A stretch of DNA of 64,000 bases. It comes from Diphasiastrum complanatum. Lineage: Eukaryota > Streptophyta > Lycopodiopsida > Lycopodiales > Lycopodiaceae. Each line of letters begins with the position of its first letter. Position 1 is the stretch's first letter. Both the position numbers and the translations under genes were made by a program. Positions 43 through 30,196 of the stretch are shown piece by piece. A model generated the notes under the pieces. It was not told where the DNA came from. It saw only the letters and a list, made by a program, of their open reading frames with translations, and did no database searches. The stretch lies in the NCBI GenBank assembly GCA_029204225.1, contig CM055108.1, forward strand, positions 18,261,779 through 18,325,778. Reading direction: 5' to 3'.

Positions 43-669
43 GTGACCCGCAAAGAGCAGCAAAAGCCTGAATCCAAAGATAAACCCTCTTCAGGCCCTC
101 CTTTCAAAAAGGGCAAAGAGCGTGTTGTTGACAAAGCTTCCCCTTCGGAAAAGAAAACGAAGCGCCCTCAGCTGGAGAGAGCTGACTTTGATAAAGTCAA
201 AAGCGATGGGTTGTGTTTCTCCTGCATGGAGAAGGGGCACCTTTCCAAGGACTGTTCGAAGAGACGGAAGAAGGGTGGCCGCTCTTTTAAGGCACCAGGT
301 AATTCTTCTATTTCTTGCATTGATGTATCTTTTAAAGATGAATCAGTTTGTATGAATTGTTGTTTTAACACTGCGGTTTTTGGACTTCACGACCTCATTC
401 GTATGAGTGGGTTCATATGTAGCCAGCCCGTGAGTGTTCTTTTTGACGACGGTTTTACGCATAATTTTATTAATGCTAAGTTGGTGCAGAAGCTGCAGTT
501 GGCGACCGCACCAAGTGACCACAAGTATGTGGTTAGGATGGCAGCTGGTGGGGAGCAGCAGGTCTGGGACCACTTTGTCCCCCATGTGCCGTTGAAGATT
601 CAGAACTATGTAGATAGTTTATCTTTTCATGTTATGAATCTTGATAAGGTAGATTTAATCCTAGGTTAA
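43..669 (+). pseudogene. Ty3/gypsy gag C-terminus with zinc knuckle and protease remnant
   Basis: The 208-codon open stretch has a lysine-rich N-terminal part, then a nucleocapsid zinc knuckle with C58, C61, H66 and C71 (C-x2-C-x4-H-x4-C) that would bind the element RNA in the capsid. A retropepsin active-site relative follows at residues 133-143 (LFDDGFTHNFI). The family normally has D-S/T-G, and here the middle residue is D, so activity is doubtful. The ORF stops at 669 right after DLILG, where protease normally continues towards RT, so a nonsense change truncates it. The listed start is only the first ATG/GTG-type codon in the open frame, and the true gag start is upstream of the window. 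Confidence 0.85.
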
Positions 670-809
670 TAATGATTTTATGCTAGAAATGAGTCATTAA
701 AGAAAAATTATGTTTCTCATAATATATCTTTCTTGCATGATGGCTCTATGGTTTTTCTTAAAGGCGATGAGCCTGATCTACCTTTTGTAATTGCTCATGA
801 GGCTAATCA

Positions 810-1696
810 ATGTATTTGGATTCTGAGTATCATTCGTATTTATGTTATCTGAAAGATGAATCATACATGGATGCTTTTGTTACTCACAATTTCAATGTTG
901 ATGTATCGTCTTTCCCTAAAGCATTGTCTTTTTCTGATGTTAATCTAGAATCTACGCCTGAAGGCAAAATCTATAAAAGACTTAGGGAGGAATATAGTGA
1001 TATATTCCCTGAGCATCACATAGATCTCCTTCCCGACAGCTCTCCTGTATCGCTTTTTCCCTACAGGATGAGCCCGAAGGAAGAAGATGAGGTTGCTAGT
1101 CAACTTAAGGAGTTATTACATAAGGGCCACATTCAGCCTAGTAAGTCCCCTTGGAGAGCTCCTATTTTGTTAACCGGCAAGAAAGACGGTGGTATTCGTC
1201 TTTGTGTCGATTACAAAAAGCTTAATAAAATGACTATTAAGAACCGTTATCCCTTACCTCGGATGGATGACTTAATCGACCGATTGAATGGTGCTAAGTA
1301 TTTCACCAAATTGGACCTTAGGTCGGGGTACCATCAAATAGAATTCACGAAGGGGATGTTTCCAAAACTGGTTTTCGTTCTAGGTATGGCCATCACGAAT
1401 TTTTCATTTTACCCTTTGGTCTAACTAATGCCTCGACAACAATGAACGATATTCTTCGTCCATATCTAGGGAAGTTTCTCATGGTATTTTTGGACTACAT
1501 TTTGATTTACAGTAAGACTCTTGAGGAGCATGAGGCGCATTTGCGTACAGTCTTAGATAATCTAAGGCAAGCAAAGCTTTATGCTAAGGAGTTTAAGTGT
1601 GAATTTTTTCAGACAAGACTCAAGTACTTGAGACATATCGTTTCCGATCGAGGTCTTGAGATCGACTACGATAAGGTCCAGAAAGTTTGTGATTAG
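810..1696 (+). pseudogene. Ty3/gypsy reverse transcriptase, frameshifted
   Basis: Two adjacent open stretches (810-1424 and 1442-1696) together carry the RT palm and fingers. Visible landmarks are the YRMSPKEEDEV entry, the IRLCVDYKKLNKMTIKNRYP fingers segment, motif A KLDLRSGYHQI, and motif C. A frameshift near 1370-1420 breaks the chain; a parallel frame there keeps the expected aromatic-rich segment. Motif C reads FLDYILIYS where the family has an F/Y-x-D-D signature, so the second catalytic aspartate is lost. The enzyme would copy element RNA into cDNA in virus-like particles, but this copy cannot be active. Confidence 0.9.
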
Positions 1697-1732
1697 CCTA
1701 CCCTGAAAACCATTAGGGAAGTTAAATTTTTT

Positions 1733-2170
1733 TTGGGCTTCACAGGTTTTTTCCATAAATTCATTGAAGACTATGCCTTAATTGCATTACCTCTAACGAA
1801 TCTTCTTAAGGGAGTGAAAAAAGACAAAAGAAAAACTAAAAAGGGTAATAAGAAGAAGGCCGGAAGGCGTTCGAAAATCAGTCCACCTGTTATATGGACT
1901 GATGAACTTAATCAAAGCTTTGAGGCTTTGAAGATATTAGTGTCTACAGCCCCTATCTTACACATAGTGGACCCTATCAGACCTTTCCTGGTGGAAACGG
2001 ATGCTAGTGACTATGTGGTGGGTGCAGTCCTTTACCAGGAAGGTAGACTTGTGGCTTTCGAAAGCAAGAAGTTGGACCCAGCTCAAAGTAGATATTCTAC
2101 TTATGAGAAGGAACTTTTTCTCTGCCATCCATGCGTTAAAGATCTGAAGACATTATTTGTACGGATCTAA
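1733..2170 (+). pseudogene. Ty3/gypsy RT connection and RNase H
   Basis: The open stretch begins in the RT thumb/connection (GFTGFFHKFIEDYA) and passes into RNase H, with the signature VETDASDYVVGAVLYQ and the later KELFLCHPCVK segment. A stop after 2170 ends it inside RNase H. Similar residues continue in other frames to about 2450, so the remaining RNase H and linker to integrase are present but scrambled. A basic insert of about 30 residues (KKDKRKTKKGNKKKAGRR) lies between thumb and RNase H. Function in the intact family is degradation of RNA in the RNA-DNA hybrid. Confidence 0.85.
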
Positions 2171-2452
2171 ATTCATGGTAACGATGGATCACGAGTCTCT
2201 TAAGTATATCTATGATGCTTTGGACCTTAGGGGTCATAAGGCCCGTTGGTCGGAACTCATTCAGGAGTTCGAATTCGACATTAAGTAGTGTTGATGTACT
2301 TCGAATTGTGTCGTTGATGCTTTGAGCCGGATTGGAGAGGTTAATCAGTTATGCTTTGCTAAGTTCCAATCCGAGTTGTATCTTTTTCTACGAGATCTTT
2401 GTTGGACCGATGAGGTCATATTTGGCAAGAAGTCCTAGCATGAAGCTCTATT

Positions 2453-2775
2453 GTGAGAAATAATCTTGGAAAGCAGGATTCCAAGAAATTGAAATCTCGC
2501 AAAGAGAAGATACTTGTTGATTATTCCATTAGGAATGGTTTACTTTTCTGTAAAGGAAAAGTTTGTGTGCCAAATATCACGGACATTAGGGCCCAAATCC
2601 TGCACGAGTGTCATGATAGCCCCAGCGTGGGACACCCTGGTATACAGAGGACACTTGACCTTGTTAAGAGAGAATTTTATTGGCCAAAAATGAAAGGTCA
2701 TGTTGAGGCATATGTTCAAAAGTGTGAATAGTGCCAAGTGAATAAAGCGGAAAGACTCAAAGAAACCATGAAGAC
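2453..2775 (+). pseudogene. Ty3/gypsy integrase N-terminal zinc finger
   Basis: The open stretch shows the integrase HHCC finger: HECHDSPSVGHPGIQRT supplies the histidines, and the two cysteines sit around a stop codon (C-E-stop-C-Q at about 2727-2737). FYWPKMKGHVEAYVQKC is the conserved helix before the second cysteine. The sequence continues only as far as NKAERLKETMKT before homology ends at the junction with the LINE relic. The catalytic D,D35E core is absent. Identification as an integrase finger is firm; cause of the truncation (LINE insertion or deletion) is inferred. Confidence 0.85.
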
Positions 2776-4290
2776 TTAGCCCGCTGCCCAGTCAAAGTGC
2801 GAGAGGATGTAAAAGCCACTACCACGTATCTGGAGGAATCAAGCTCTGAGATTCTGTGAATGAATGTGATTATCCTGAAAATAGCCTCGACAAGCAGTGG
2901 AGGAGAAGCAAACTCCGCCAGAATAATCTCATGAGGAATGAACTGCTTGGCCCGAATCATCCGGCTAAGCATGTGAATCTGTAAACGCGAGATATCACTC
3001 CAAGTATCTCTAGATAAGCCTAGGCACCATGTCTCTGCTGAGTACAGTGCCACTGGAGAAACAGTCAAAGAAAAGAGGCGACATCGTGTGTCTGGATCGT
3101 GCACATAATAAGTAGAGGAAAACCTCTCCATCTGAACAAGAGCAGAGTGCCCCTTGCGGAGCCTAGCCAATGCAACTGGTCGAAACGAAAGCAATGGGCC
3201 AGAAAAGAGAACACCCAGGTATGTGTAAGACGCTACTATCTCTAGAGGCTGTCCATCAAAATAGAACATAGTGTCTCCCATATGCTGCCTGTTGGTGTTA
3301 AACACCATAACCTTAGTCTTTCCAATGTTCACCATTAGCCCCCATATCTGACAGAAAATATACAAATCATCCAGATGTCGCTGAAGTCCTTAGCTGAACT
3401 AGATAGTAAAACCACGTCATCTGCATAAAGAAGGATGGGGATAACAATATCTGCTAAAGGACAGCCATCCCCCCCTTCTTCCTGAATAATACGCTCAAGG
3501 TCGTCAATGTATAAAGCAAAAAGGGTGGGTGATAAAGGACATCTCTGCTTTACTCCGACCATACTATGAAAATATGAAGACCATCCATCTCCATCACGAA
3601 ATCTGGCCAAAACTCTCTCATATAATGTGATGATAGCAGCAATGATCTCCTGTGAGAAACCAAGGGATGCCAGACGCTAGAGCAGCAAGTGTCGCGGAAC
3701 TGAATCAAATGCTTTGCGGAAGTCCACAAAACAGCAATAGCCTCTCTGTTTCCTGAACTTCGCTGCCTTAATGATACATCTCCGTATGAATATCTGGTTT
3801 GCTGTGGAGTAGCCTGCTTTTAAACCTATCTATCCCATAGCATATAACTCCTATGTCTTTGCAAGAGCGCTGATGACAGACTGCATAACTGAACCATAGA
3901 GCTTAGCCATAGTGTGGCTAATAATAATAGTACGATAGTTGTCTACATTTAGAGGATCACCAGCCTTAAGTATAGGGTGCAAAAGATTAGTACACCAAGG
4001 TGTGGGAAAGCCAAAAATAACAGATTGGTTAAAAACGTAGGAGATGTATGGAGCAACAATATGGGCGATAGGTTTTAGAAAGTCCATACTTAGAGAGTCA
4101 ACATCAATGGCTTTATGGTTTTGGCCATTTTTTATGGCGTTTTCAATCATGGACGGAGTGAAAAAGGTGAATTCTGAAGGTCGGGGTGAGAGAGAGATGG
4201 AAGGGGAGTCAACTGTATAAAGTTTTGCAGCACAGTCAATCCACGATTCAATGGCAATAGGTAAAATCTGTTTTGAAAATTGAATCTTGA
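2757..4290 (-). mobile_element. LINE (non-LTR retrotransposon) RT relic, copy 1
   Basis: On the minus strand an RT of the non-LTR type is readable from about 4290 down to 2757 in three frames. In order come an N-terminal segment around SMDFLKPIAHIVAPYISYVF and NVDNYRTI (4150-3851), motif A FVDFRKAFDSVPR (around 3740-3690), VGVKQRCPLSPTLFALYIDD, motif C YADDVVLLSSS (3610-3335), and the thumb-like VASYTYLGVLFSG with downstream sequence (3365-2757). Both catalytic aspartate motifs survive, but stops and at least two frameshifts interrupt the frame. No endonuclease domain is seen, consistent with 5' truncation. It is clearly related to the plus-strand copy at 7597-8298. Confidence 0.9.
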
Positions 4291-8298: not shown

Positions 8299-8420
8299 TA
8301 TTATATAACTTGTGTGCATGTAGGACTCGAAAGCTTCCAAGAAGACAAACTTTACATGCATGGCAGTGTTAAAAGTGTGTTAGCCAACACGTTGACCTAT
8401 TTCTTGAAAAACATAAGCAT

Positions 8421-9062
8421 CCTTTGGCATTAATAAACAAGAAGAGGAAGGCCAACTAGTAACGCCGCATAAATCAACAAACTTTTTAAAAAAAATAGGG
8501 AACTACACTATATGCTTCAGTATCAATGGTTGTCATATTGGAGGAAAAAGTTTTCCCTATAAACATGTCTTCATATAAGCCAAGGATAGTGTGCATCTAT
8601 GTGAAGTACTACATAGAGTCAAGTTAGAGACTCAAGCTTCCTTTGGCATTTTCAATCCAGAAGAGGAAGGCTAGATAGTAACAGTTCATAAAGCAAAAAA
8701 CTCTAAAAGCATATTGCACTATATGCTTCAACATAAATGATCTCCATATTGGAGGAGAAGGCTTGCTCTACAAACATGTATTTGTCCGAAAACTCATATA
8801 AGCCAAGGATAATTAGTCTATGAAAAGTACTAAAAGGATTCAACTTAAAGATTCCTCTAGCTTCCTTTGGCATTAATAAACAAGAAGACTAGGTTTGTAA
8901 CACCACATAAATCAGCAAACTTTTAGAAAGAGACTGCACAATATCCTGAAGCATGAAGGGATTCCATAATGGAAGAATTTGCACTACAACATGTCTTGAT
9001 CTTAAAAACTCATATAAGCCAAATAAGAATCTATGTAAAGTATCGAAAGAGTCAAAATCCTC
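8421..9062. repeat. Three diverged ~220-bp tandem units
   Basis: Units begin with CCTTTGGCAT at 8421, 8640 and 8864 (219, 224 and about 199 bp). Shared internal words, in the same order in each, are ACAAGAAGA/CAGAAGAGGAAG, CATAAATCARCAAACTTTT, CACTATATGCTTCA, ATATTGGAGGA, AACATGTCTT and ACTCATATAAGCCAAGGATA. Divergence is high (about 25-30% by eye), so the array is old. No coding capacity. It sits immediately downstream (minus strand) of a candidate exon, so it may lie in an intron or 3' flank. Confidence 0.85.
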
Positions 9063-10730: not shown

Positions 10731-11928
10731 TGGGTGACAGTAAGTGGGTGGCCTCATGCTTTTGTAATCCTAAGATGTTTTGTGCATAACATGATACTTT
10801 CCTTATTCTGCTTGCAAAAAAAGTTCATTAGGCAATATTTCAGGTGCACTCTTCAACTTACCATGGAGTTTGAAGAAACTTGAAGCTCGAAAATGAAAAA
10901 AGTAGCTGGTCTAAGAAAAGGACAAATCAAGTGGTCTACACAGCAAGAGTGTGAGCACTGGCTACTACTAACCTGAAAATAGCAATTTAATCACACTACC
11001 AAAGATTTGGCCTGATCAATTGGATTTATGCCATGAGAGCTGGATCCAAGAGTGAAGGTGCTGGGGTTTAGGGTTTAGAATCTAGAGTGGTAGCTGTGGC
11101 ATTAAGATAGCGGAAACCTTGAACCACTTTCTATATCTAGATTCTAGATGTGCTCTTCGTCCTAGTGTTGGAAACGAAAGAACCTGGAAGAAGGCTGAGC
11201 TGCAATAATTGCCAATGCCACCCACACCAGCATAGATTGGTAAACAGCAGCATTCAAAACCTGCCACATTTTTGCAGCAGACGACTTCATTCTCTTCAGG
11301 AAGCCATTGCCAATGAGCACCCACCACACCGTGTCAGCTGAATTGAGAGAATTTGCACAGAATCCAGACGAAACAAGTTCTTTGAAGCCCCCCCATTCTT
11401 CCTCCACTGACCCATTTCCTACTATAACCTTGCGAACCTCAATACGAGCTGCAATTCATCAAACTCCTGCTGTCAGCTAGTTAACAATGTCATTGTTCCC
11501 AAGATCATACTTAAAAAGTCTGGTACAAACACAATTCCGTACGGATGTTTGCATTGTGATTTCATATCCGTGCATTAATCCACAAAATTGAGCTGGTTAT
11601 CCGCTTTTGAAATATTCTGAAGCACAATGCCAATAAATCCACAGATTGGAACTCTCAGCAAAACCGAACCTCTAGCATTCGGTACAACAATGCTTGCACA
11701 TGCTCCACTGCTCCTTCTCCCGGACCTGGAAACACAGCCTTTGACCAGTGGTATTGGAGTGAGTGCATAATGATGTAAGATGCAGGGAGCTTCAAAAATG
11801 CCATGAAAATTCATGCTGTTCTTCCAACAAATCTGTGAAGCATTCATTGTTGGGCAGCTATGGAACTGATGGAACACCAAAGCTCCACAGCTATGGCGTT
11901 TTAGCTTGTTTCCCACCACAAATTTGTA
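10731..11928 (-). other. Region with unassigned minus-strand open stretches
   Basis: Minus-strand open stretches at 11162-11407 (SLNSADTVWWVLIGNG, a hydrophobic MLVWVALAIIAA segment) and 11575-11919 (PIPLVKGCVSRSGRRSSGAC, VPICGFIGIVLQNISKADNQ) have protein-like composition but no motif I recognise. A third consensus donor GTAAGT on the minus strand occurs at about 10857. They may be upstream exons of the same candidate gene as 9101-10487. A two-unit TTTAGGG telo-box lies at about 11065-11078. Confidence 0.25.
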
Positions 11929-12301
11929 CCTCTAGAAATCCTTCCCATGGCCATGAATTTCAAAGTTTTTGTGGGTTTTGCTTTTGTTTCACTAAAACCT
12001 CTAGAAATCCTTTCCATGGCCATGTATTTATTATTTTTGTGGGTTTTGCTTTTGCTCCACTAAAACCTCTAGAAATCCTTCCCATGGCCATGAATTTCAA
12101 ATTTTTTGTGGGTCTTGCTTTTGCTCCACTAAAACCTCTAGAAATCCTTCTCATGCCCATGTATTTCAAAAAATTTGTGGGTTTTGCTTTGTCCACTAAA
12201 ACCTCTAAAAATCCTTCCCATGGCCATGTATTTAATTTTTTTTGTGGGTTTGCTTTTGCTCGCTAAAACCTCTAGAAATCCTTCCCATGGCCATGTATTT
12301 T
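11929..12301. repeat. Minisatellite with ~68-bp units
   Basis: Units start with CCTCTAGAAATCCTTCCCAT at 11929, 11998, 12066, 12135, 12202 and 12269, giving spacings of 69, 68, 69, 67 and 67 bp; the last unit is partial. Each holds CCATGGCCATG, then TTTGTGGGTTTTGCTTTTG and CACTAAAA. Indels between units are 1-2 bp, so the 167-codon ORF running through it is a repeat artefact. Confidence 0.95.
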
Positions 12302-17764: not shown

Positions 17765-18275
17765 AATAGTAGGGCGCTAGTCCTTCTCCAAATGATAATG
17801 ATAATCTGCAAAACAAGTGGAGAGACAATCTCAAAATGGGTGTTGGGCAGCAGCTAGTAAGATCCACAAATGTCCCGCAAAATCATAGAAAAACTACTAA
17901 AAATGGTGATGAAGTAGGGTGTTGGACAGCCTCCAAACAATCAACAAAATGGACAGCAAATCGGTGGAGAAATTCGTCGAAAATGGCAAGGTAGTAGGGC
18001 GATGGGCAGTAGCTACTAAAATCCGCACATAACCTAAAAAAAAATGCAGAAAACCGTTGAAGCTAGTGATGAAGTAGGGCGCTGGTGAACAACCTCCAAT
18101 CAATCCATGAGATGGGTAGCAAATCGATGGAGAAAATCGACGAAAGTGACAAGGTAGTAGGGCGCTGGCCAACCTCTACCAAATATGGAAAAACGATGGA
18201 AATCTGATGAAAAAATTGACAAAAGTGATGGGTTAGTAGGGTGCTGACAGCCTCTACTAAATCTGAAAAAGTGGT
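17765..18275. repeat. Degenerate ~80-bp minisatellite
   Basis: The word TAGGGYGNTGG recurs at about 17770, 17837, 17915, 17995, 18075, 18158 and 18237, i.e. mostly 79-83 bp apart. It is accompanied by CCTCYAMMAAATC-like words and ATGGAGAAATYGWCGAAA. Alternate units are more alike, suggesting a ~160-bp dimer. Minus-strand ORFs across it are artefacts of the near-multiple-of-three period. Confidence 0.8.
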
Positions 18276-18628
18276 GCAAAGGAAAGTGCTTTGATACCAA
18301 GTTACGAATGAAGTCATTTAGATCCATATGCTTTGCCAATATTCCCTTGCATATAAGGAATAAGGAGGATCTAATCTCAATCAAGAAGATAATGATAGGA
18401 TTCTCAAATCTACAAAAAATCCAAGTGTATGATGGAGATTTGTCAAGGCTTGAGGAGGAGTCTTCTCAACACATGGTTTCATGGAGATCTTCAAGAGGCA
18501 AGCCTGAGTCTTTGTGGCCCACAATACATGGCAAAGAGGGAAATTTTTCAAGTGATATCTATTTCAACATATTCACTTTTGCTTCTCTTACATTATTTGA
18601 TGTACCATTGCTTTTATGAGGTTTCTAC
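18276..18628. other. Intergenic sequence, no gene recognised
   Basis: Short open stretches on the plus strand, without motifs. This is the flank immediately upstream of the tRNA-Asp-like sequence. Confidence 0.5.
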
Positions 18629-18703
18629 ATCTCATAGTTGGAGTGGTGAGTATTTTCGCCTGTCACGCGGATGACCCGGGTTCGTTCCCCGACAACGGTG
18701 CCA
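18629..18703 (+). tRNA. tRNA-Asp(GUC)-like sequence with encoded CCA, fused to an LTR
   Basis: Seventy-two bases followed by CCA align end to end with plant tRNA-Asp. They include the anticodon arm TTCGC-CTGTCAC-GCGGA (anticodon GTC at 18661-18663, stem still pairable), the T arm CCGGG-TTCGTTC-CCCGA, the acceptor strand CAACGGT plus discriminator G, and then CCA at 18701-18703. From the anticodon onwards only about four positions differ from the tRNA-Asp I recall. The 5' acceptor strand has decayed and no longer pairs. Plant tRNA genes do not encode CCA. Here CCA is followed by AAAT and the LTR of a minus-strand element, exactly as at that family's primer-binding site (24719-24740). I read it as a captured primer-tRNA copy, not a working tRNA gene. 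Confidence 0.8.
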
Positions 18704-18707
18704 AAAT

Positions 18708-19455
18708 TGTAGTGGGTTTATTTCCTTGCCTATCCTCAATCCAAGAACTAATCAATCTAGCATCGAGGAGATGAAGTTAGTTGTCACGCATAGATTTGTT
18801 CCCATGAGAGCGATAGCATAGTTCAGATTTCAACATGAATGGAAGATTCACATCTAACTCTAACATCCATTAACCCTAAGCATTAATACTACATCCATTA
18901 ACACTAGATCCACAATGAAGATAGCTTACTCTTTCTCTCTCTCCCTTTCTCTCTCATAAAAAGTATAAAAACATGCAATCCCAATAACAATCAGATCCAA
19001 TAATTAGCAAAACACAATAAAAGCATGAGAAATGGAGGAAAAGTGATAGAGAGCAAGGACATTCATAAATCCATTTCTGAAAAGAACCAATCCGCTTTAT
19101 TGAAATGAAGATATGTACATGTGTAGGCAAATCGAGTTGGTCCCTTTTTATAGTAGAGAGGAGGACCCTGGCCTCTGAATCCTATTGGTCCATTTCTGCC
19201 TCCCTAACTATTCAAATTTAAAAAAGAGTGGGAACCATCCAAATTGGAGGGAAACCCAACTTTATTCACTAATTTGACATTTAGGCCCTGCGACATTAAA
19301 AGTCTCGCAAAAAGGTCTAAAGTCCTTTTATTAATTTTCTAATTAATCAAATCTCTATGTGATCATCGGGTTGGACTTACACACGCAGACTGCCAAATCC
19401 CTCTCACTTATTAACTAGGGTTAGGGTTGCCTTGGGATCCGCAAACCCTCCAACA
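18708..19455 (-). repeat. 3' LTR of the outer Ty3/gypsy element
   Basis: 748 bp, TGTAGTGGG...CCTCCAACA on the plus strand, closely similar to 24741-25458. The inner region has CTCTCTCTCCC and a TATA-like CATAAAAAGTATAAAA stretch near 18957. Unlike an ordinary 3' LTR, it is followed on its U5 side by the spacer and primer-binding site and the rest of a tRNA. Confidence 0.9.
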
Positions 19456-19476
19456 GTATCCCCCACCAAAACTGCT
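19456..19476 (-). promoter_or_regulatory. Polypurine tract of the outer element
   Basis: On the minus strand TTTTGGTGGGGGATAC immediately precedes the LTR start TGTTGGAGGG. A G-rich run directly before a 3' LTR is the usual plus-strand primer. Confidence 0.7.
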
Positions 19477-19508
19477 GGCGGTCCCACGACACCTGCGAGA
19501 TGCAATTA

Positions 19509-20211
19509 TTATAGGCTTTTATTTGCTTCACATCGAATCTTTATTAAATGATATTGCACCTTTTCCATAAAATCGAGTCGAACAGTGTTAAAATCTAAAT
19601 TGTGCGGCAAAAAACAATGGTGGGCTCCGGCAATCCACTTTGAAGTTGTCCAGGATGTGAATCGACATTCCCAAGAACCTCCCATCATTGTGGCACGAAA
19701 ATACAATCTAGCCACCGACAGCTGATCCTTAATATTCTCTGACGCCATTGGCTTATTCAGATCAAATGCCAAAGGAGGAAGACAATCATCTCATCGCGTT
19801 GCCACGGATTCCAATAGAGTCAAGTCTTTTGCAAAAAGCGCCAATTGCCTCACTATCGGATATCGAGAGAGTGTATATACTCCCACTAGTATGCTTGTAG
19901 TGCCCGGTGGAAATCCACTGAAATTTCCCAACTGTAAGGTTAGTGGATGATTGGCTAGTTTGGCGTATGGATAGTAATTTTGTCCATGGCCAATCCCAAA
20001 TCCTTCCACTTATTCAAGTGCGGCATTGGTACGTAATATGGCTCTAAGCGCAATTGGCGAGGGCTGGCCACATAACTCCTGATGGATTCCGGGGTTTTCT
20101 CAAAAATTGTAACTCTCCAAGCTGGCTGCTCTCCCGATGCGGGTATTTTATTCAATTCTTTGTCGGCCTCTATTTTAGAGGTCTTAAACTTGAGGACCCA
20201 ACCACCACGCG
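19509..20211 (-). pseudogene. ORF X, C-terminal block (element 3' extra ORF)
   Basis: Minus strand, continuing in frame from the N-terminal block once the nested element is removed: GGWVLKFKTSKIEADKELNK, EQPAWRVTIFEKTPESIRSY, PYYVPMPHLNKWKDLG, then after a frameshift near 19960 NYYPYAKLANHPLTLQLGNF and PPGTTSILVGVYTLSRYPIV. One in-frame stop lies at about 19789, followed by LAFDLNKPMASENIKDQLSV and the natural end CEANKSL with two stops. I know no domain for it. The position between integrase and 3' LTR matches extra ORFs of Tat/Athila-type elements, but homology is unproven. Confidence 0.6.
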
Positions 20212-20216
20212 AGGAC

Positions 20217-20529
20217 TGTAGTGGGTTTCTTTCCTTGCCTAACCTCAAACCAAGATCTAGTCAATCTAGCATCAAAGAGACGAAGTTAGTTGTCACGCAT
20301 AGGTTCGTTCCCATGAGAGCGATAATATAGTTTAGATTTCAGCATGAATGGAAGATCCACACTAACATCCATTAACCCTACGATCCATTAACACTACATC
20401 CATGAACACTACAATCCACAACAAACATAACTTACTCTTTCTCTCTCTCCCTTTCTCTCTCATAAAAAGTATAACAACATGCAATCCCAATAACAATAAG
20501 ATCCAACAATTAGCAAAATCCAAAGAAAG
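20217..20529 (-). repeat. Truncated 3' LTR of the inner element
   Basis: Matches the end of the 5' LTR at 24741-25041 and breaks at AAAGAAAGCAT, where integrase C-terminal sequence begins. One deletion therefore removed everything from the end of integrase to the middle of the LTR. Ends at TGTAGTGGG next to AGGAC. Confidence 0.9.
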
Positions 20530-22280
20530 CATCCTTGAGATCAGACTTGTTGATGTGCAGAGCAGACTGCCAAAACTTGCGTAATCGACTGCCATTCACT
20601 GGAGTATCAAATCGTTTTCCATCCAAGTGCTCAAGAGTTACTGCGCCATAGTTCAGGATTTTCTTCACTTTATACGGGCCTTCACCGGTAAACTTCAATT
20701 TTCCCTTGATCAGCTTGGTTTTGTACATCAATGCAAGATCTCCTGCTTTCAAATCCTTTTTGTGCAATCGACGATCGTGCCATGCCTTGCGATGGGCTTT
20801 CTCTGCTGCTAACGCATGAACTGCCATCAATCGCGTTTCACATAATTTGTGCAATGCTTCATGACGTAGTTGTAAAGACTTATCAGCATTTAATCGTTTT
20901 GTTGCCGCTATGCATGAAGATGGGATTAAAAATTCAATCGGCACGACAACATCTTGACCATAAACCAGTTGAAAGGGTGTTTGATTTGTACTATTTTTGT
21001 AAACGGTTCTGAATGCCCATAATGCTGCATACAGTTTATGTTCCCAATCAGACCGAATCACTTCAACTGTCTTCGTCATAATAGTGCAGAGAATATTATT
21101 GGAAGATTCAGCTTGGCCATTCCCTCTGGGATAGTAAGGAGTGCTAAATCTATGTATCACAAAAAAATCTTACAATAAACACTTTATTGTTTGATTAACA
21201 AAGTGTGTACCCCAGTCACTGACAATCTCGATCGGACATCCAAATCTGATTATAATATTTTCATAGAGAAACTTGGCCATAGATTTCGCATCAGCAACTT
21301 TGACAGCTTTGGCTTCAACCCACTTGGTCATATAATCAGTTGCGACGATAATGTATCTGGCCTGAGATCCTTGCGTGACAGGTTGAATAGGACCAACATA
21401 ATCCAGTCCCCATTTTTCAAACGGTGTTTGCGATTAAACCGGATGCAAGGGTCCATAGTTAAGTCTAGTAGGCCATCGTGCTCACTGGCAAACATCACAT
21501 GTCTGAATATAGTTTTTTGTGTCTTTATGAAACGTAGGCCACCAACAACCTGATTGCAAAAGTTTGCGAACAGTAATATCTGTAGAGAAGTGTCCTCCGC
21601 CCATGCCATCATGTGAAAACATGATTAAATCTGGTACTTCATGCGGTAAAACACATCTACGTAGAATATTGTTTGATCCACGACGATACAATTGTCCTGC
21701 AATCAATTGATAAGGTTGAGTCTAATGAATCAATTGCCTCTTCTGTACTTTTGTCAAGGAGTCATTTGGTTGTCCTAACATCAGGTACTCAACAATATCC
21801 ACTGCCCACTCAGGTACTGCTTCTACATAGAACAATGCTGCATCTGGTGCAGATTCGATTCGCGAAACGTGATCGGCTAGATAATGTTGCTTTTTCTTTT
21901 GAACCACAATTCGAAAGTCAAAGTCAGTCAATAATAATAACCATCTTGCAATACGTCCAATATTGCATGTCTTGTTTACCAAGTAAAGTAACTGATGGTG
22001 ATCCGTATAAAATGCAAAGTACGTTTCCATGAAGTAGTGACAAAATTTTTGAACAAAAAAAATCATGGCTAATGCTTCAGGTTCTGTTGTTGAATAATTC
22101 TTCTCTGGATCTATAAGTTGTCTGCTTGCAAATCGTATAGGATAATCTTTCTTATAATCACCTGGCTACGTCAAAACTGATCCAATGGCATATTTCGAGA
22201 CATCCGTGTGAACATGAAATTCTATCGTCCAATCTGGAGAACGCAGTATTGGTGCTGAAGTTAATGCTTTTTTTAATTTT
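20510..22280 (-). pseudogene. Inner element RNase H and integrase
   Basis: Minus strand. RNase H begins just after the gag junction (FEKLKKALTSAPILRSPDWT, HVHTDVSKYAIGSVLT, NYSTTEPEALAMIFFVQKF, FYTDHHQLLYLVNK) and runs to about 21720. The integrase HHCC finger (MFSHDGMGGGHFSTDI, QSGCWWPTFHKDTKNYIQTC, CDVCQ) follows, then the core with YIIVATDYMTKWVEAKAVKV, GCPIEIVSD and HRFSTPYYPRGNGQAESSN, which supplies the catalytic aspartates and glutamate. The C-terminal domain has LKAGDLALMYKTKLIKGKLK and GPYKVKKI. Stops near 22158, 21722 and 21160, plus changes around 21430, break the frame. Confidence 0.92.
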
Positions 22281-23520
22281 TCAAAGGCTTAACGCCTCTA
22301 TTCTGGTCCAATTTCTAGATGCTTGTTGTTGCACGACAGCATAAATAGCATATTGTTCTGAAGATCCACCTTCTTGCTCATTACCATAGTTCCATTGCTC
22401 GACGCTTCTGTACGGTTTTGGTTCCATCAAATTGGCAGGAGGAGCAGAGTGCTTTGGTGGGGCAGGTAAGGCTAAACGTTTTGGGTATCCAAGAGTAGAT
22501 TGTCGAGGTCTAGTTGCTGGATTTCCTCGATACTGTGGTTCTCGATATCCCATTTGGACATATCGTTGCTGAATTATCCGAGGATTGAAGTTGCAAAAAG
22601 TAGTCTCATGATTAGGTGAATTACACAAATGGCATACACTAATTTCCATTCGTTTTTTCAATTGAGGACACTTGTTCACTTTGTGATTTCCTGTACAAAT
22701 AGAACACCAGACATTTTCCCTGGTAGGAAAAGTCTTCGCAAACTTCTCAGGTTCCTTGTTCGCTTTTCCATGCAAATCTTCCAATGCTTTGATCTTCTCA
22801 TCAAATTGCGACTGCAACTTTTCCATCTGTTTTTGTTGGTTCTTCCCAAGTTTTTCGAACTCGTTGAGCATCATTTCTGCAGTAGTGTTGACATTCGTGG
22901 ATGCAATAGTGATGGATGTCGTAGTAGTCTGTCCTGCTGTATAAGGCAACATACTGATATTCGGCTCATCATCTGAATCTTCATCCTCCTTCCGAATTGC
23001 ATCGATTCTGCAACATTGCGTACTCATTATGGCGTTTCAGCTCACGTCTGATTCGTTTAGGTAAATCTGACAAAAACCACATAATCATGGCATTTTTGTT
23101 AATCAGCTCAGGTTTGCACTCAGATCTGAGGTGTTTCACCCGTTCAATGTAATCTTGAACCATTTTCCGCTTCCCCATTCTGATTTTACTTAAAAGTAGG
23201 AAAGGGTCTTCCATAAACTTTCGCGGTTTGAATCGTGTGATAAGGGCTCTTTTAACAACCTCCCAATTTATACGCTCACTTTCATCTTGATTATAGTACC
23301 AATCTTGTGTTGTGCTTGTTAAGGCCATAGGAAACAACTTAAGTTTATCTTGCGGGAAAATTTTGCCATAGACTTCACAGGATTCAGCATAGATCTGAAA
23401 AAATATAACTAGATCTGTTAATCCATTGTATTTGGGTAGATTCAAACGGGGTGCTCTTCTAACAATAGTAGGATTGACTTCCTGAGAAGCACCTCCCATA
23501 ATAGCTCCAGGGGCAGCCAT
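22281..23520 (-). pseudogene. Inner element gag (capsid and nucleocapsid)
   Basis: Minus strand, start MAAPGAIMGGASQEV at 23520. The capsid region is of retrotransposon-gag type (LNLPKYNGLTDLVIFFQIYA, QDWYYNQDESERINWEVVKR, MVQDYIERVKHLRSECKPEL). A frameshift near 22990-23025 leads to a coiled-coil-like stretch (EFEKLGKNQQKQMEKLQSQF). Two zinc knuckles follow: CSICTGNHKVNKC (C-x2-C-x3-H-x4-C) and CHLCNSPNHETTFC (C-x2-C-x4-H-x4-C). Beyond them the sequence passes at about 22290 into RNase H; protease and RT are missing. Confidence 0.9.
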
Positions 23521-24718
23521 CTTAGCATATTCAAATCAAGCAGACAATGAGATTGGATCTAGATTTTTCAATCAAAAAACTATCTCAGATTAGATCTGCT
23601 AGATCTATTTCACTTTTCAAAAATCTGATTCTATATCGTGAAAAAGATTTCGAAACTTGATCAATCGATACTTCTAAAAAATGATCAATTTCTCAGAATC
23701 CAAATTAGACTGTATCAAATTTGACCCAAATTTTGACAGAGACTTGATCTGGAAAATCAAAACCTAAAAATAGTATTGGCGAAGGTTGGCTCGACGAAGG
23801 TTCAGCAGTGCTATTTGGGAAAAAAAACTCTCTGATCAACTTTTTTGACAATTTCTAGGAAAATAACCTTCGCCGAACTCTCAGATGCAAGATCTGACAC
23901 AGATAAAACTAGGGTAAACCCAGCGAAGGTTTTTGACACAAGAAAATACAGTTTGTGTAGTTTGACGAGGGTAAAAATCAAGATTTTCTATGATCTAGAC
24001 AAGAAGAATTTCACCGAACTCAAAAATAGTATTCTATTTTAAATAGAATGTTTTGGAGACTCGGTGAAGGTTTCGGCGAAGGATCAAGAGTAATACTGTA
24101 TTTTTGCAAAAAAAGTGTCTTTTTTAGCAAAAATATGGCACTATGACAACTGATCCTCTGGTAACCCTTCTATTTTTGGTATTATTCTTCGTTGACCTGG
24201 TACTAGATAGATTTGAATCACACCTATGCACAGTGAATCGGACGAAGGTTCTTTTTTTGTATTTTTAGGGTTTTGGTGATTTTTGGGTGTCTTTTGACGG
24301 TTTTTCTGATGTTTCTGAAAATCTGCTGGGAATTAATTTCCGCCCTTCAGACTGAAGGTTTTGTTATCAAAATCGAAGGTGTTTGCAACTCGGCGAAGGT
24401 TTTTTGAAAGAGGGCAAAAAGTTATCAGCTCTGATGACGATTTTTGTCTCTTTTTGACCAAAATCTAATAGATTTGACCAATTTTTGTTGTTTTTTCTGA
24501 TATCTCATATCCAAATGGACCTTAAGATTGGTGATCTAAATAGCTTTTCCTATTCTACAATCAGATTAGATCTCAAACAAGCAAATCCACTCAAATCAAG
24601 CAAAATCACTCCCAAAGTAACCCTAAATGCAAATCTAACACTATTCATGCAACGACAAAATGCTTAATGCAAGCTAAACATCTACAAAACATGCTGCAAA
24701 CTGAAAAATTGGCGTACC
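23521..24718 (-). other. Leader of the inner element with repeated CGAAGGTT motif
   Basis: About 1.2 kb between the primer-binding site and gag, without a convincing ORF. It contains at least eight copies of a motif close to GGCGAAGGTT or CGACGAAGGTT: 23778, 23792, 23865 (inverse), 23922, 24062, 24073, 24239, 24373 and 24391. The same motif clusters again at 27571-27911. Confidence 0.8.
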
Positions 24719-24736
24719 TCCCCGGCAACGGTGCCA
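24719..24736 (-). promoter_or_regulatory. Primer-binding site of the inner element (tRNA-Asp)
   Basis: On the plus strand TCCCCGGCAACGGTGCCA corresponds to the 3' 18 nt of tRNA-Asp including CCA. Four bases (AAAT) separate it from the LTR. The match to the tRNA stops where expected for a normal PBS, in contrast to 18629-18703. Confidence 0.9.
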
Positions 24737-24740
24737 AAAT

Positions 24741-25458
24741 TGTAGTGGGTTTCTTTCCTTGCCTAACCTCAAACCAAGATCTAGTCAATCTAGCATCAAA
24801 GAGACGAAGTTAGTTGTCACACGTAGGTTTGTTCCCATCAGAGCGATAGTATAGTTCAGATTTCAACATGAATGGAAGATCCACATCTAACTCTAACATC
24901 CATTAACCCTACAATCCATTAACACTACAATCCACAACAAAGATAGCTTACTCTTTCTCTCTCCCCCTTTCTCTCTCATAAAAAGTATAACAACATGCAA
25001 TCCCAATAACAATCAGATCCAACAATTAGCAAAATCCAAAGAAAGCATGAGAGATGGAGGAAAAGTGATAGAGAGCAAGAACATTTGTCAATCCATTTAT
25101 GAAGAGAACCAATCTGCTTTATTGAAATGAGAAAATGAACATGTGTAGGAACTCGAGTTGGTCCTTTTTTATAATAGAGAGGAGGATCCTAGCCTCTATA
25201 TCCTATTGCCTCACTAATTATTCAAATTTAAAAAAGAACCATCCAAATTGGAGAAAAACACAACTTTATTCACTAACTTGACATTTAGCCCCTGCGACAT
25301 TAAAAGTCCCGCAAAAAGGCCTAAAGTCCTTTTATTTACTTGTAACTAATCAAATAACTATGTGATCATCGAGTTGGACTTACACACGCAGGGTGCCAAA
25401 TCCCTCTCACGTATTAACTAGGGTTAGGGTTGCCTTGAGATCTGCAAACCCTCCAACA
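24741..25458 (-). repeat. 5' LTR of the inner element
   Basis: 718 bp, TGTAGTGGG...CCTCCAACA on the plus strand; transcription would run on the minus strand. It contains a CT-rich tract (about 24950-24977) just before a CATAAAAAGTATAA word. Clearly homologous to 18708-19455. Confidence 0.92.
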
Positions 25459-25463
25459 AGGAC

Positions 25464-27320
25464 TCATGAGGATGTTGTGCTAAAAAGCTCTGGATCTGGT
25501 CCTCAACATTGATTGGTCTTCTGAACAATGGTGTGGTCCTTGATGAAGATAGTCCTGGTTGCATTGCCTGTGAAGCTGGCTGTTCTTCTTCAACTTCAAG
25601 GGAACTGAAATCTGAGGCCTAGCTTCCAACACCTGAGCGACAACCTTTTCATATGCGGTAATGGTTGCTTTGGCCTTTGCCAACTTAGTTGAAGTTGTAC
25701 CCTTGAATCTGTCAAAGCGGCCTTGGAATCCTTGAAGAGCCACTTTAAAGGTTTCAACCTTTTTAAAACAAATAGCTTCGTGCTGCTTGGCGATCTTCAA
25801 CTCTTTGTCCAACTGAATGACTTTCTGGCCGATGAGTGTATTCTCAGATCCCATATCTGAGATGCATTGCTCCATTTCTTTTTTCTTATCTAGCATAGAC
25901 TGGATCACTTGTGCAAGGCTTGAGACTAAACCGAGAGCATCACCATAATCTACTGTTGTGGAGGTGGTAGCAGCAAAAGGAGCTGGTGGTACTGTCCCTG
26001 GTTGGCGTGGAGCAGGTGCTTGTAACTCTTCTTCTTCAAAGAGGTCTTCTTCTTCATAGCCCTCAGGCACTGTGGCGTAGAACTGCTTTGGTGATTTGAC
26101 AACTTGCCCGACCTCAATTGTGGCTGGTGCGGCTTCAACTTGAGTGGTTAATCTAAAAAGAGTCTTTAAAACCAGTAGTTTTATCATGGAGCTGTTCGAA
26201 TCCTCTTCCAAGGGATTGGAGTTCAAAGGGCGCAGGGCTCTAGGGCATTACAAAAATTTCTGAGGCCCCAAGGGGGTCGGAATCATCGAACATGTCCATG
26301 AAATACCAGGTGTTTGGGGAAAAAGCTCCTGTGTGTGGAGGTGAGGCAGCCTAGGCAGTTGTGGAGGTGAGGCAGTCTGGGTAGCTGTGATGGAAATGGT
26401 AGTCCCAATGGTCATAGACTGTCCTTGAGAGGAAGCAGAGGCGAGGGAAGCATCAGAGGCGGGGGGAATAGGTAGTTCAGCGCGAATAGCAGCAGGTCGT
26501 GACACGAAAGGCGTCAGAAATGACGATCTCACTGCGTGGACGACGTCGACTATGTGAGTTGGATGTCTGTTGAGATGACTCAGCCGGTGTTTCTTCATAA
26601 ATAGAAAGCACGGAATCCATACAAAAACCATGGATTTTATTTTCAAGGTGGGAGGCTGCTAGGAGTGACAAGAAAGGGCCAACAACAAATTGCTGCTTGG
26701 TATTGCCCTTGATGGCTCGTTTGAGCTCTCCAAAAATGGTCTTGAATTAGTTATATGGTTCCAGAGAAGCCTTGGCTATCTTGGCATGAGATTCAACTAT
26801 TCTATGCAAAATCTGAAAAGTAATTCGGTCTTTCTTGAGGTTGCCAACCATCAGGAAACTGTTGAGGAGCTGAGCAGCAGCCTGAATGGCTGAATCAGTA
26901 ATGGATTCTAGAAGATAGCCGTCATTAGTCCAGTGCAAATCATTGGTAATGTCAATATAAGGCTTAATAGCCTATTTGGCTTGCTTATGGTTTGGTGAGG
27001 CTTGGGTACCAGATGCTATCTATCCCTATGGCAGCAAGGGCAGCCTCAGTCACACGCACCTTGTGTGTGGCTCCCTGGAAAGTTATGTAAAACTTGGATT
27101 TCTCCTCCTTCCAAGTACTGAAGGCAAGAGTGATAAAATCCATGTTGATTCTCCCTGAGAAGGCTCTCTCATGAATACCCATTGCAGTAAGCAAAGGCTC
27201 CACAAGGGTCATCCACTGAGTGACCATGCTTGTGCTAGGAAGGATCATGATATCCATTGCAGATGGGACATTACGATGGATAGTGTAACACGACAACTGA
27301 GACGTATCTGTGGAAGACAT
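25464..27320 (-). pseudogene. ORF X, N-terminal block (element 3' extra ORF)
   Basis: Minus strand. I prefer the start MSSTDTSQLSCYTIH at 27320; the open frame before it is a hydrophobic AT-driven stretch. Block 1 (27320-26985) includes MVTQWMTLVEPLLTAMGIHE and KFYITFQGATHKVRVTEAAL. After a stop comes DSAIQAAAQLLNSFLMVGNL, after another stop QFVVGPFLSLLAASHLENKI. Block 2 (26226-25480) has an acidic/proline-rich part (GYEEEDLFEEEELQAPAPRQ) and a long predicted coiled coil (about 25950-25600). A frameshift near 25570 gives the frame (PLFRRPINVEDQIQSFLAQH) that continues across the nested insertion. Joined length would be about 850 codons. Function unknown. Confidence 0.6.
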
Positions 27321-27463
27321 GATGGAAAAGAACAGAAACTGAAAGTAATAGACGCGAGTGTATATCAGAAAACAATACAAATTTTTTTGAAGGCTTTGGT
27401 CACTGGAAAAATTGGCAAGAGCTTCGCTTGCACAAGTGAGGAATGAATCGAATTCAGCCAACT

Positions 27464-28123
27464 TATAGGTGATTTTGGAGGGTCCATTACACAGAATACT
27501 AGTTTGGCTAATCAGTTCTGAACAAAAATTTGCAGGCTTGTTCAGTACTGTGAAAATAGGCTATAAAAATTTCGACGAAGGTTTTTGAGGTTCTGAAGCC
27601 ATCCGACGAACGTTTTCCAGGCTGGCAAAGAATGAACCTTCGTCCAAAAGGATCCTTCGCCCAAGTACTGTCATAAATGCAACTTTCAGGCTCTAAACCT
27701 ATAGCCAACCTAATTTTGACATTTTAAGACCATTTAGCATATCAGTGAAGCTTTTTGAGGAGAGTAAGGTGCTCGACGAAGGTTTTCAAAATGGCATATT
27801 GCTGATCATTCACCTAACTTAGAAACATGTACTTTTTCTAGAAAAGAACCTTCGCCCAAGTCAATATAGATATATCTGAAGTGGATGTATAATCTGAAAG
27901 TTCAACGAAAGTTTCCAATACTGTATGGGCAACATATGACCGAAACAATGGTTTTATAAGTTATTTTCCATCAAAAATTATCTTTTGAAAATACTTTCCT
28001 TCCTCTTTTTTCACTTGATGACTTTTTCTGACTTTTGCTCATCAGTATTTCCTCATTTTTTTTATTATTGTCTTTTCCAAACAAAGTTAACAATTAAGTA
28101 GTGAAAACAAATAAAAATAAAAA
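27464..28123 (-). other. Integrase-to-X spacer with CGAAGGTT motif cluster
   Basis: No ORF. At least six copies of the motif also seen in the gag leader: 27572 CGACGAAGGTT, 27603 CGACGAACGTT, 27635 inverse, 27652 inverse, 27773 CGACGAAGGTT, 27847 inverse. Both orientations occur. Confidence 0.75.
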
Positions 28124-29221
28124 TCATTTGGACCATGCTTGTTGAACTAGCGGAGCATGATGCCAAAACTTGCGTAATCGACTGCCATTCACAGGAGTAT
28201 CAAATCGTTTTCCGTCCAAGTGCTCAAGAATCATTGTTCCATAGTTCAGAATTTCCTTCACTCTATACGGGCTTTCACTGGTAAATTTCAATTTTCCCTT
28301 GAAAAGCTTGGTTTTGTACATCAGTGCGAGATCTCCCGCTTTCAGATCCTTTTTGTGTAATCGACGATCTTGCCATGCCTTACGGCGGGCTTTCTCTGCT
28401 GCTAACGCATGAACTGCCATCAATCTTGTTTCACACAATTTGTGCAATGCTTCATGACGTAGACTTATCCTCATTTAACCGCTTTGTTGCTGCTATGCGT
28501 AAAGATGATATTAAAATTCAATCGGCATGACAACATCTTGACCATAAACCAGTTGAAAGGCTGTTTGATTTGTAATTACTTTTGTAAGCGGTTCTGAATG
28601 CCCATAATGTTGCATGCAATTTATGTTCCCAATCAGATTGACTCGCTTCAACTGCTTTTGTCATAATAGTGCAAAGAATCTTATTGGAAGATTCAGCTTG
28701 GCCATTCCCTCTGGGACAATAAGGAGTACTAAATCTGTGTATAAAAAATCTTCTAGTAAACACTTTATCATTTGATTAACAAAGTGTGTACCTCGGTCAC
28801 TGACAATCTCGATCGGACATCCAAATCTGATAATAATATATTCATAGAGAAACTTGGCCGTAGATTTCGCATCAGCAACTTTGACAGCTTTGGCTTCAAC
28901 CCACTTGGTCATATAATCAGTTGCTACGATAATGTATCGGGCCTGAGATCCTCGCGCGGCAGGATAAATAGAACCAACATAATCCAGTCCCCATTTTTCA
29001 AATGACACTTGCGATAAAACCAGATGTAAGGGTCCATAGTTCTGTCTAGTAGGTCGTTGTGCTCGCTGGCAAACATTACATGTCTGAATATAATTTTCTA
29101 TGTCCTTATGAAGCGTAGGCCACCAACAACCTGATTGCAAAAGTTTGTGAACAGTAATATCTGTAGAAAAGTGTCCTCCGCCCATGCCATCATGTGAAAA
29201 CATGATTAAATCTTGCTTCAA
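28124..29221 (-). pseudogene. Outer element integrase
   Basis: Minus strand, closely similar to the inner element's integrase. Finger: MFSHDGMGGGHFSTDITVHK, CWWPTLHKDIENYIQTCNVC, CQRAQRPTRQNYGPLHL. Core: FEKWGLDYVGSIYP, YIIVATDYMTKWVEAKAVKV, GCPIEIVSDRGTHFVNQMIK, STPYCPRGNGQAESSNKILC, so D, D and E positions are visible. C-terminal: LKAGDLALMYKTKLFKGKLK. Frameshifts near 28660 and 28540 break it. Homology ends at about 29212, where DLIMFSH is preceded by unrelated sequence, marking the truncation point. Confidence 0.92.

Positions 29222-29481: not shown

Positions 29482-30196
<715 letters not shown>

Follow-up and report, generated by a model that had tools for sequence, protein, structure and literature searches.

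Copies of primer tRNAs that continue LTR ends past the primer-binding site (PBS) recur in the genome of Diphasiastrum complanatum, and their template is mature tRNA. The best explanation, which we regard as highly probable, is that strong-stop synthesis read through the primer past m1A58 and that the resulting dead-end cDNA end was joined elsewhere. Among the best-scored candidates, we found at least 49 such joins with tRNA-Asp, in 20 right-flank families, and at least 22 with tRNA-iMet. The structures of the joins, their CCA, the marks at base 58 and nt 9/10, the stop positions, and the recurrence across families and with two primers are all directly observed.

One of these copies lies in the window, by which we mean the whole stretch of 64,000 nucleotides that was analysed. 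On the plus strand, the order is tRNA-Asp (anticodon GTC), CCA at 18703, AAAT, and the LTR at 18708-19455 (Table 1). The original prediction described a whole tRNA-Asp copy, matching over 72 nt with CCA, beside this spacer and a 3' LTR. The spacer and the LTR were confirmed by direct reading and by the polypurine tract (PPT), and the similarity, the GTC, and the CCA are real. However, the match covers 62 nt (18642-18703; 90% identity, E 1.9e-20 by BLAST with a hand-entered plant tRNA-Asp reference), and the copy is not whole: it spans only nt 14 to CCA, nt 1-13 are absent, and the acceptor 5' strand is unrecognisable. Judging from the letters, TAGT at 18635-18638 may be the leftover of nt 8-11; a search for the missing 5' part within the window gave six weak matches, none resembling it. 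Base 58 of the copy is T. The Rfam tRNA model scored 18634-18700 at 19.4 bits, against a gathering score of 29, and ARAGORN found 0 tRNA in the copy, which is thus degraded; a functional tRNA gene at 18642-18703 was rejected on these two results. The sister copy in the window carries only the 18-nt PBS with leader beyond it, as had been described.

The PPT lies on the inner side of the LTR at 18708-19455. This LTR is therefore the 3' one, and its element runs on the minus strand. Indeed, at this boundary (19456) the minus strand reads TTTTGGTGGGGGATAC followed directly by TG. An inner relative at 20217-25458, flanked by the target duplication AGGAC at 20212-20216 and 25459-25463, separates the body of this outer element into two parts, 19456-20216 and 25459-29213. 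No 5' LTR of the outer element was found among the matches listed in the window self-comparison. The Ty3/gypsy marks comprise gag and integrase domains (Retrotrans_gag in the inner element, Integrase_H2C2 in the outer one, where rve falls slightly under the cut-off), an LTR, a PBS to the tRNA 3' end, a PPT, and a 5-bp duplication (AGGAC, inner element only). The window family may belong to a non-chromovirus lineage: it has both a tRNA-Asp PBS and a long region after the integrase, and tRNA-Asp is listed among the primers of non-chromoviruses (PMC6317226). The probable LTR of another element adjoins the tRNA copy and, from its position, that element may have been inserted into it; within the window, sequence like 18299-18634 gave weak matches only. 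Two further observations concern the window: positions 29482-29575 hold an LTR end that lacks a tRNA copy and is of the family of the L041/L073/L125 captures, and diverged direct repeats occur at 8415-9055, 11928-12300, and 17838-18171.

Table 1. Features around the tRNA-Asp copy (positions in the window)
Feature	Position	Strand	Evidence and remarks
Probable LTR of another element adjoining the tRNA copy	18299..18634	-	iMet PBS-like GCTTTGATACCA at 18287-18298
Possible remnant of tRNA nt 8-13, uncertain	18635..18641	+	TAGTTGG vs TAGTAT; direct reading
tRNA-Asp(GTC) copy, nt 14 to CCA	18642..18703	+	T at A58 position (18685); sequence reading and BLAST
AAAT (+ strand) spacer between LTR end and PBS	18704..18707	-	Identical in sister copy
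LTR A, 3' LTR of outer Ty3/gypsy element	18708..19455	-	87% to LTR B; PPT adjoining
PPT of outer element	19456..19472	-	Direct reading; identical sequence next to LTRs of L012 and L017
3' internal region of outer element	19473..20216	-	79-88% to stretches of this region in L010, L012, L017
Inner element, same family, seemingly internally deleted	20217..25458	-	Target duplication AGGAC; gag match
Truncated LTR C of inner element	20217..20532	-	91.8% to LTR B
Ordinary 18-nt PBS of inner element	24719..24736	-	Direct reading; leader beyond
LTR B, 5' LTR of inner element	24741..25458	-	Sequence reading and self-comparison
3' internal region of outer element, continued	25459..29213	-	Directly follows the 19473-20216 region in L010, L012, L017
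Integrase within outer element	~28109-29213	-	Integrase_H2C2; 88.5% to 20516-21632

The searches covered the window's own genome (1.74 Gb), and in each DNA search the best ~40 of 96-3621 candidates were scored; since only these best-scored candidates entered, the census is partial and biased to long copies. The queries were the tRNA region and the two tRNA-Asp isodecoders; inspection and removal of duplicates left 49 Asp representatives, copies sharing flanks being counted once. L068/L069 (without CCA) and L101 (TCA) were left out, as was C3258:930 from the type 2 Asp set, while L027 and L071 were retained though their CCA is inexact. For tRNA-iMet, 37 of 40 scored places were examined, and the 22 rows include L088, L098, L102, and L110 (inverted or sense-oriented). 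Right flanks outside the window family were called LTR ends by their position beside the CCA; three other right-flank families are also represented by ordinary-PBS copies, and a fourth by a decayed copy.

The type 1 isodecoder was copied in 31 of the 49 Asp representatives and type 2 in 18, and 23 of the events belong to the window's own LTR family. Left flanks are similar in two pairs of events and differ among the others. A 192-bp query likewise returned further copies of the window LTR that carry tRNA sequence past the PBS, with differing left flanks. Had the tRNA-like stretch been ordinary leader, other copies of the element would show the same 72 nt; an extension is present in some of them, but its ends and flanks differ, and five ordinary copies (L018-L021 and LTR B) lack it, having the 18-nt PBS and a common leader end. 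The exact PBS-LTR pattern of the window family occurs 684 times in the genome (the reversed pattern 0 times) and is matched by 4 of the 23 known events in this family, which gives ~0.6% as a lower bound. The capture had been called uncommon: this holds per element, but not genome-wide, where the event is met again in numerous right-flank families and with both tRNA-Asp and tRNA-iMet as primer. The copies also bear on tRNA annotation: of the 40 scored tRNA-Asp matches of one search, 28 end in CCA against an LTR-type end, and the genes number 7.

That mature tRNA was the template follows from the CCA and from base 58. The CCA is present in 47/49 Asp copies, the exceptions being the two inexact ones, and the seven tRNA-Asp genes seen (four of one type, three of the second) all have A58 and all lack CCA. 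Of the 48 copies aligned at base 58 (L055 is gapped there; L059 and L128, ambiguous at this base, were scored A), 29 keep A, 16 have T, and 3 have G. Thus, 19/48 are changed, as compared with 6/540 at the remaining A sites (Fisher p 6e-18), and changed bases occur in 8 of the 20 right-flank families. Transversions account for 16/48 at base 58 vs 38/3430 elsewhere. The transitions outside base 58, 232 in number, are as expected from the decay of methylated DNA. We take base 58 of plant tRNA-Asp to be m1A in the mature tRNA. Misincorporation at m1A is mainly A to T, other changes being rarer (PMC6851129).

The copies also differ in where they start. Of the Asp copies, 23/49 reach nt 1 and show LTR end, spacer, PBS, and tRNA to nt 1, while the other 26 start inside the tRNA, at nt 2, 4, 5, 7, 8, 9, 12, 13, 14, 16, or 21, the shorter stops being under-counted because the queries favour long copies; the window copy covers nt 14-76 only. 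By BLAST of 120 nt, the 5' flanks of six of the seven gene loci matched 0/49 left flanks and their 3' flanks matched none of the right flanks of the 49 copies. C28 is T in 13/31 type 1 copies from several families, and none of the seven genes seen has T28; across 29 copies, other sites that share its CCG context changed 1, 2, and 4 times, but G65 13 times. This tRNA position corresponds to 18656 in the window. In the PBS part, G65 became A in 20/49 and C72 became T in 12/49; as both also vary in ordinary PBS copies, this part may have come from the element itself or have decayed.

The tRNA-iMet copies carry a mark at another site. Comparing 22 events, one G is lost at nt 9/10 in 13 of the 18 copies that cover nt 9, and both Gs are present in the ten iMet loci taken as genes (L077-L085, L094). 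The modification at nt 9/10 of tRNA-iMet is presumably m1G9/m2G10. Skipping is among the reverse transcriptase (RT) signatures of modified bases (PMC7144921). Base 58 is A in 21/22 iMet copies, and the base-58 mark is therefore not universal. At the iMet loci L077-L083 and L094, TCA directly follows the gene, which thus comes close to encoding CCA. As single control isotype we used tRNA-Gly, which we assume is not a usual primer, with a hand-entered query whose top matches are 94% identical: the CCA end was reached in 0/19 matches, all of them scored and 10/19 informative, ten stopping at nt 71-72 and nine earlier, at nt 64-66.

The left partners of the tRNA end are of several kinds. In direct order, we found PBS plus leader (L009), leader (L014), gag (L013), and the 3' internal region (L010, L012, L017, L027, L055); in inverted order, gag (L035/L037) and LTR (L036); some partners match no identified sequence. 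Counted from the L012 PPT, the 3' internal region extends to 1278 in L017 (9 nt before the tRNA), to 1253 in L027 (13 nt before the tRNA), and to 549 in L055, where a 40-nt LTR piece follows; all three read tRNA, shortened 3' internal region, PPT, LTR. In L010, the region runs from ~410 to 1113 with an LTR behind and the PPT end absent, and in L012 the tRNA-adjoining piece covers 111-444 with no LTR behind. No target duplication was found around the extended copy L055. In L041/L052 and L116/L117/L121, a second LTR end faces the tRNA (BLAST).

Inverted or sense-oriented LTR-tRNA structures (L041/L052, L067, L116/L117/L121, L088, L098, L102/L112, L110) have the appearance of cDNA ends that folded back or were joined head to head. 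By eye, L067 resembles the iMet copy L088 over ~11 bases, and in L088 the 3' end of the tRNA cDNA could have folded back on the acceptor-stem copy and primed into the LTR. In L073, L124, L125, and L132, past the LTR end (CTGTTGTGT), the LTR itself resembles the 5' part of tRNA-Asp, which may be an older capture turned into a part of the LTR.

In the read-through explanation, minus-strand DNA would be primed by tRNA-Asp and remain attached to it, and plus-strand strong-stop synthesis would run through U3-R-U5 and the spacer into the tRNA 3' end, with a normal stop before m1A58. Bypass of m1A58, often with a wrong base inserted, would let copying proceed to or near the tRNA 5' end. Once over-extended, the 3' end can no longer pair with the complement of the PBS, and hence the right end would be joined elsewhere: to an internal site of the same family, which yields deleted elements; to a second LTR end with the order inverted, which yields inverted elements; or, as in the window, to some other DNA. 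Copies with A58 may derive from unmodified tRNA or from correct bypass, those with T58 or G58 from bypass of modified tRNA. We infer the retrotransposon RT as copier, the order of the steps, and the joining route. The original prediction had proposed read-through by RT with abnormal joining of the unprocessed end, and this is strongly supported by the CCA, the excess of changes at A58, the stops at nt 1, and the absence of the 5' flanks of six gene loci.

A different copier is conceivable, although we think it unlikely: the primer RNA was kept on the unprocessed cDNA end, and a host repair polymerase, not the RT of the element, copied the tRNA after end-joining, bypassing m1A58. This predicts the CCA, the modification marks, and the nt-1 stops equally well, and break repair in yeast takes up Ty1 3' LTR cDNA with cDNA-only nucleotides (PMC10802722, preprint). 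Joins to internal sites in the family, followed by PPT and LTR, fit a reaction inside a replication complex somewhat better, but not decisively.

It is much harder to maintain that a tRNA was captured once in the leader of one element and then spread, the later copies being deletion variants. Joins were duplicated in L038/L039, L048-L050, and L056-L058, and 23/49 events fall in a single LTR superfamily, which points the same way. However, apart from the two similar pairs, the left flanks of the 49 representatives differ, the joins involve 20 right-flank families, two isodecoders, and two tRNAs, and many deletions ending exactly at tRNA nt 1 would be needed; distinct flanks and families thus disfavour one inherited leader. 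In the LTR tree, the extended LTRs are scattered, with 5 label changes of which at least 2 are forced, and 82/500 label shuffles were as low, which is no different from chance; the tree is compatible with several origins without proving them, and the independence of events within one LTR family is incomplete. Recombination of the PBS with a genomic tRNA-Asp gene across the shared 3' end, the other route in the original prediction, would account for tRNA sequence past the PBS through 15-18 bp of shared sequence, but it is scarcely tenable given the CCA, the A58 of all seven genes seen against the excess of changes at that base, the nt-1 stops, the 26/49 copies that begin within the tRNA, left flanks unlike the 5' flanks of six gene loci, and the similar joins of tRNA-iMet.

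Known systems share single features with the read-through copies. LINE machinery makes tRNA retropseudogenes and so places tRNA cDNA in genomes; here, unlike in those, the CCA end abuts an LTR-type end, and none of the tRNA-Gly matches bears CCA. In retroviruses, plus-strand strong-stop DNA halts before m1A58, a stop thought to give precise plus-strand transfer, and on unmodified tRNA copying continues as far as the 5' end; the full copy (P1) is not listed among the products able to act as active templates (PMC13191261). P1 has the same layout of LTR end, PBS, and tRNA copy, but in that text it is known from unmodified tRNA in vitro, with extension past A58 in methyltransferase-mutant cells (PMC13191261), whereas the plant copies are genomic and ~40% of the Asp copies are changed at base 58. 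Over-extension of lentivirus and spumavirus primers, described in the same source, also passes m1A58 into the T loop, but it is short and strand transfer is still possible (PMC13191261), while here most of the tRNA is copied. Ty1 cDNA capture at yeast double-strand breaks is alike in that 3' LTR cDNA is joined outside normal integration, with cDNA-only nucleotides in 40/56 insertions; whole tRNA copies and modification marks are absent from the available part of that account (PMC10802722, preprint). Helenus TRIM elements are LTR elements with tRNA-like sequence, but it lies inside the LTR with no PBS complementarity (PMC10886601), whereas here it lies beyond the LTR and has the sequence of the primer itself; identity with Helenus was rejected, as the tRNA is outside LTR A and not inside both LTRs.

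A full-text literature search, based on titles and abstract openings and with most subscription journals outside its coverage, returned no description of whole primer-tRNA copies beside genomic LTRs or of their modification marks. An older retrovirus literature exists on defective DNAs with tRNA sequence. In vitro read-through and yeast cDNA capture are already known; the genomic fossil record of such events is what the search did not find.

The genome seems to preserve an abnormal replication product together with a modification record of its tRNA. Failure of the m1A58 stop seems to be recorded many times, with two primers and in several LTR families, and the fate of failed replication products becomes visible in the genome. 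RNA modification, normally invisible to DNA sequencing, thereby appears written into DNA. Tentatively, and as a possibility that we would not yet call probable, plant genomes may hold a readable fossil record of tRNA modification, in which m1A58 changes and nt 9/10 skips report modified tRNAs and RT bypass, and the same read-through may be a regular route to internally deleted or inverted non-autonomous LTR elements. In other plant genomes one could ask at what rate the stop fails, which primers are involved, and whether its failure produces non-autonomous elements.
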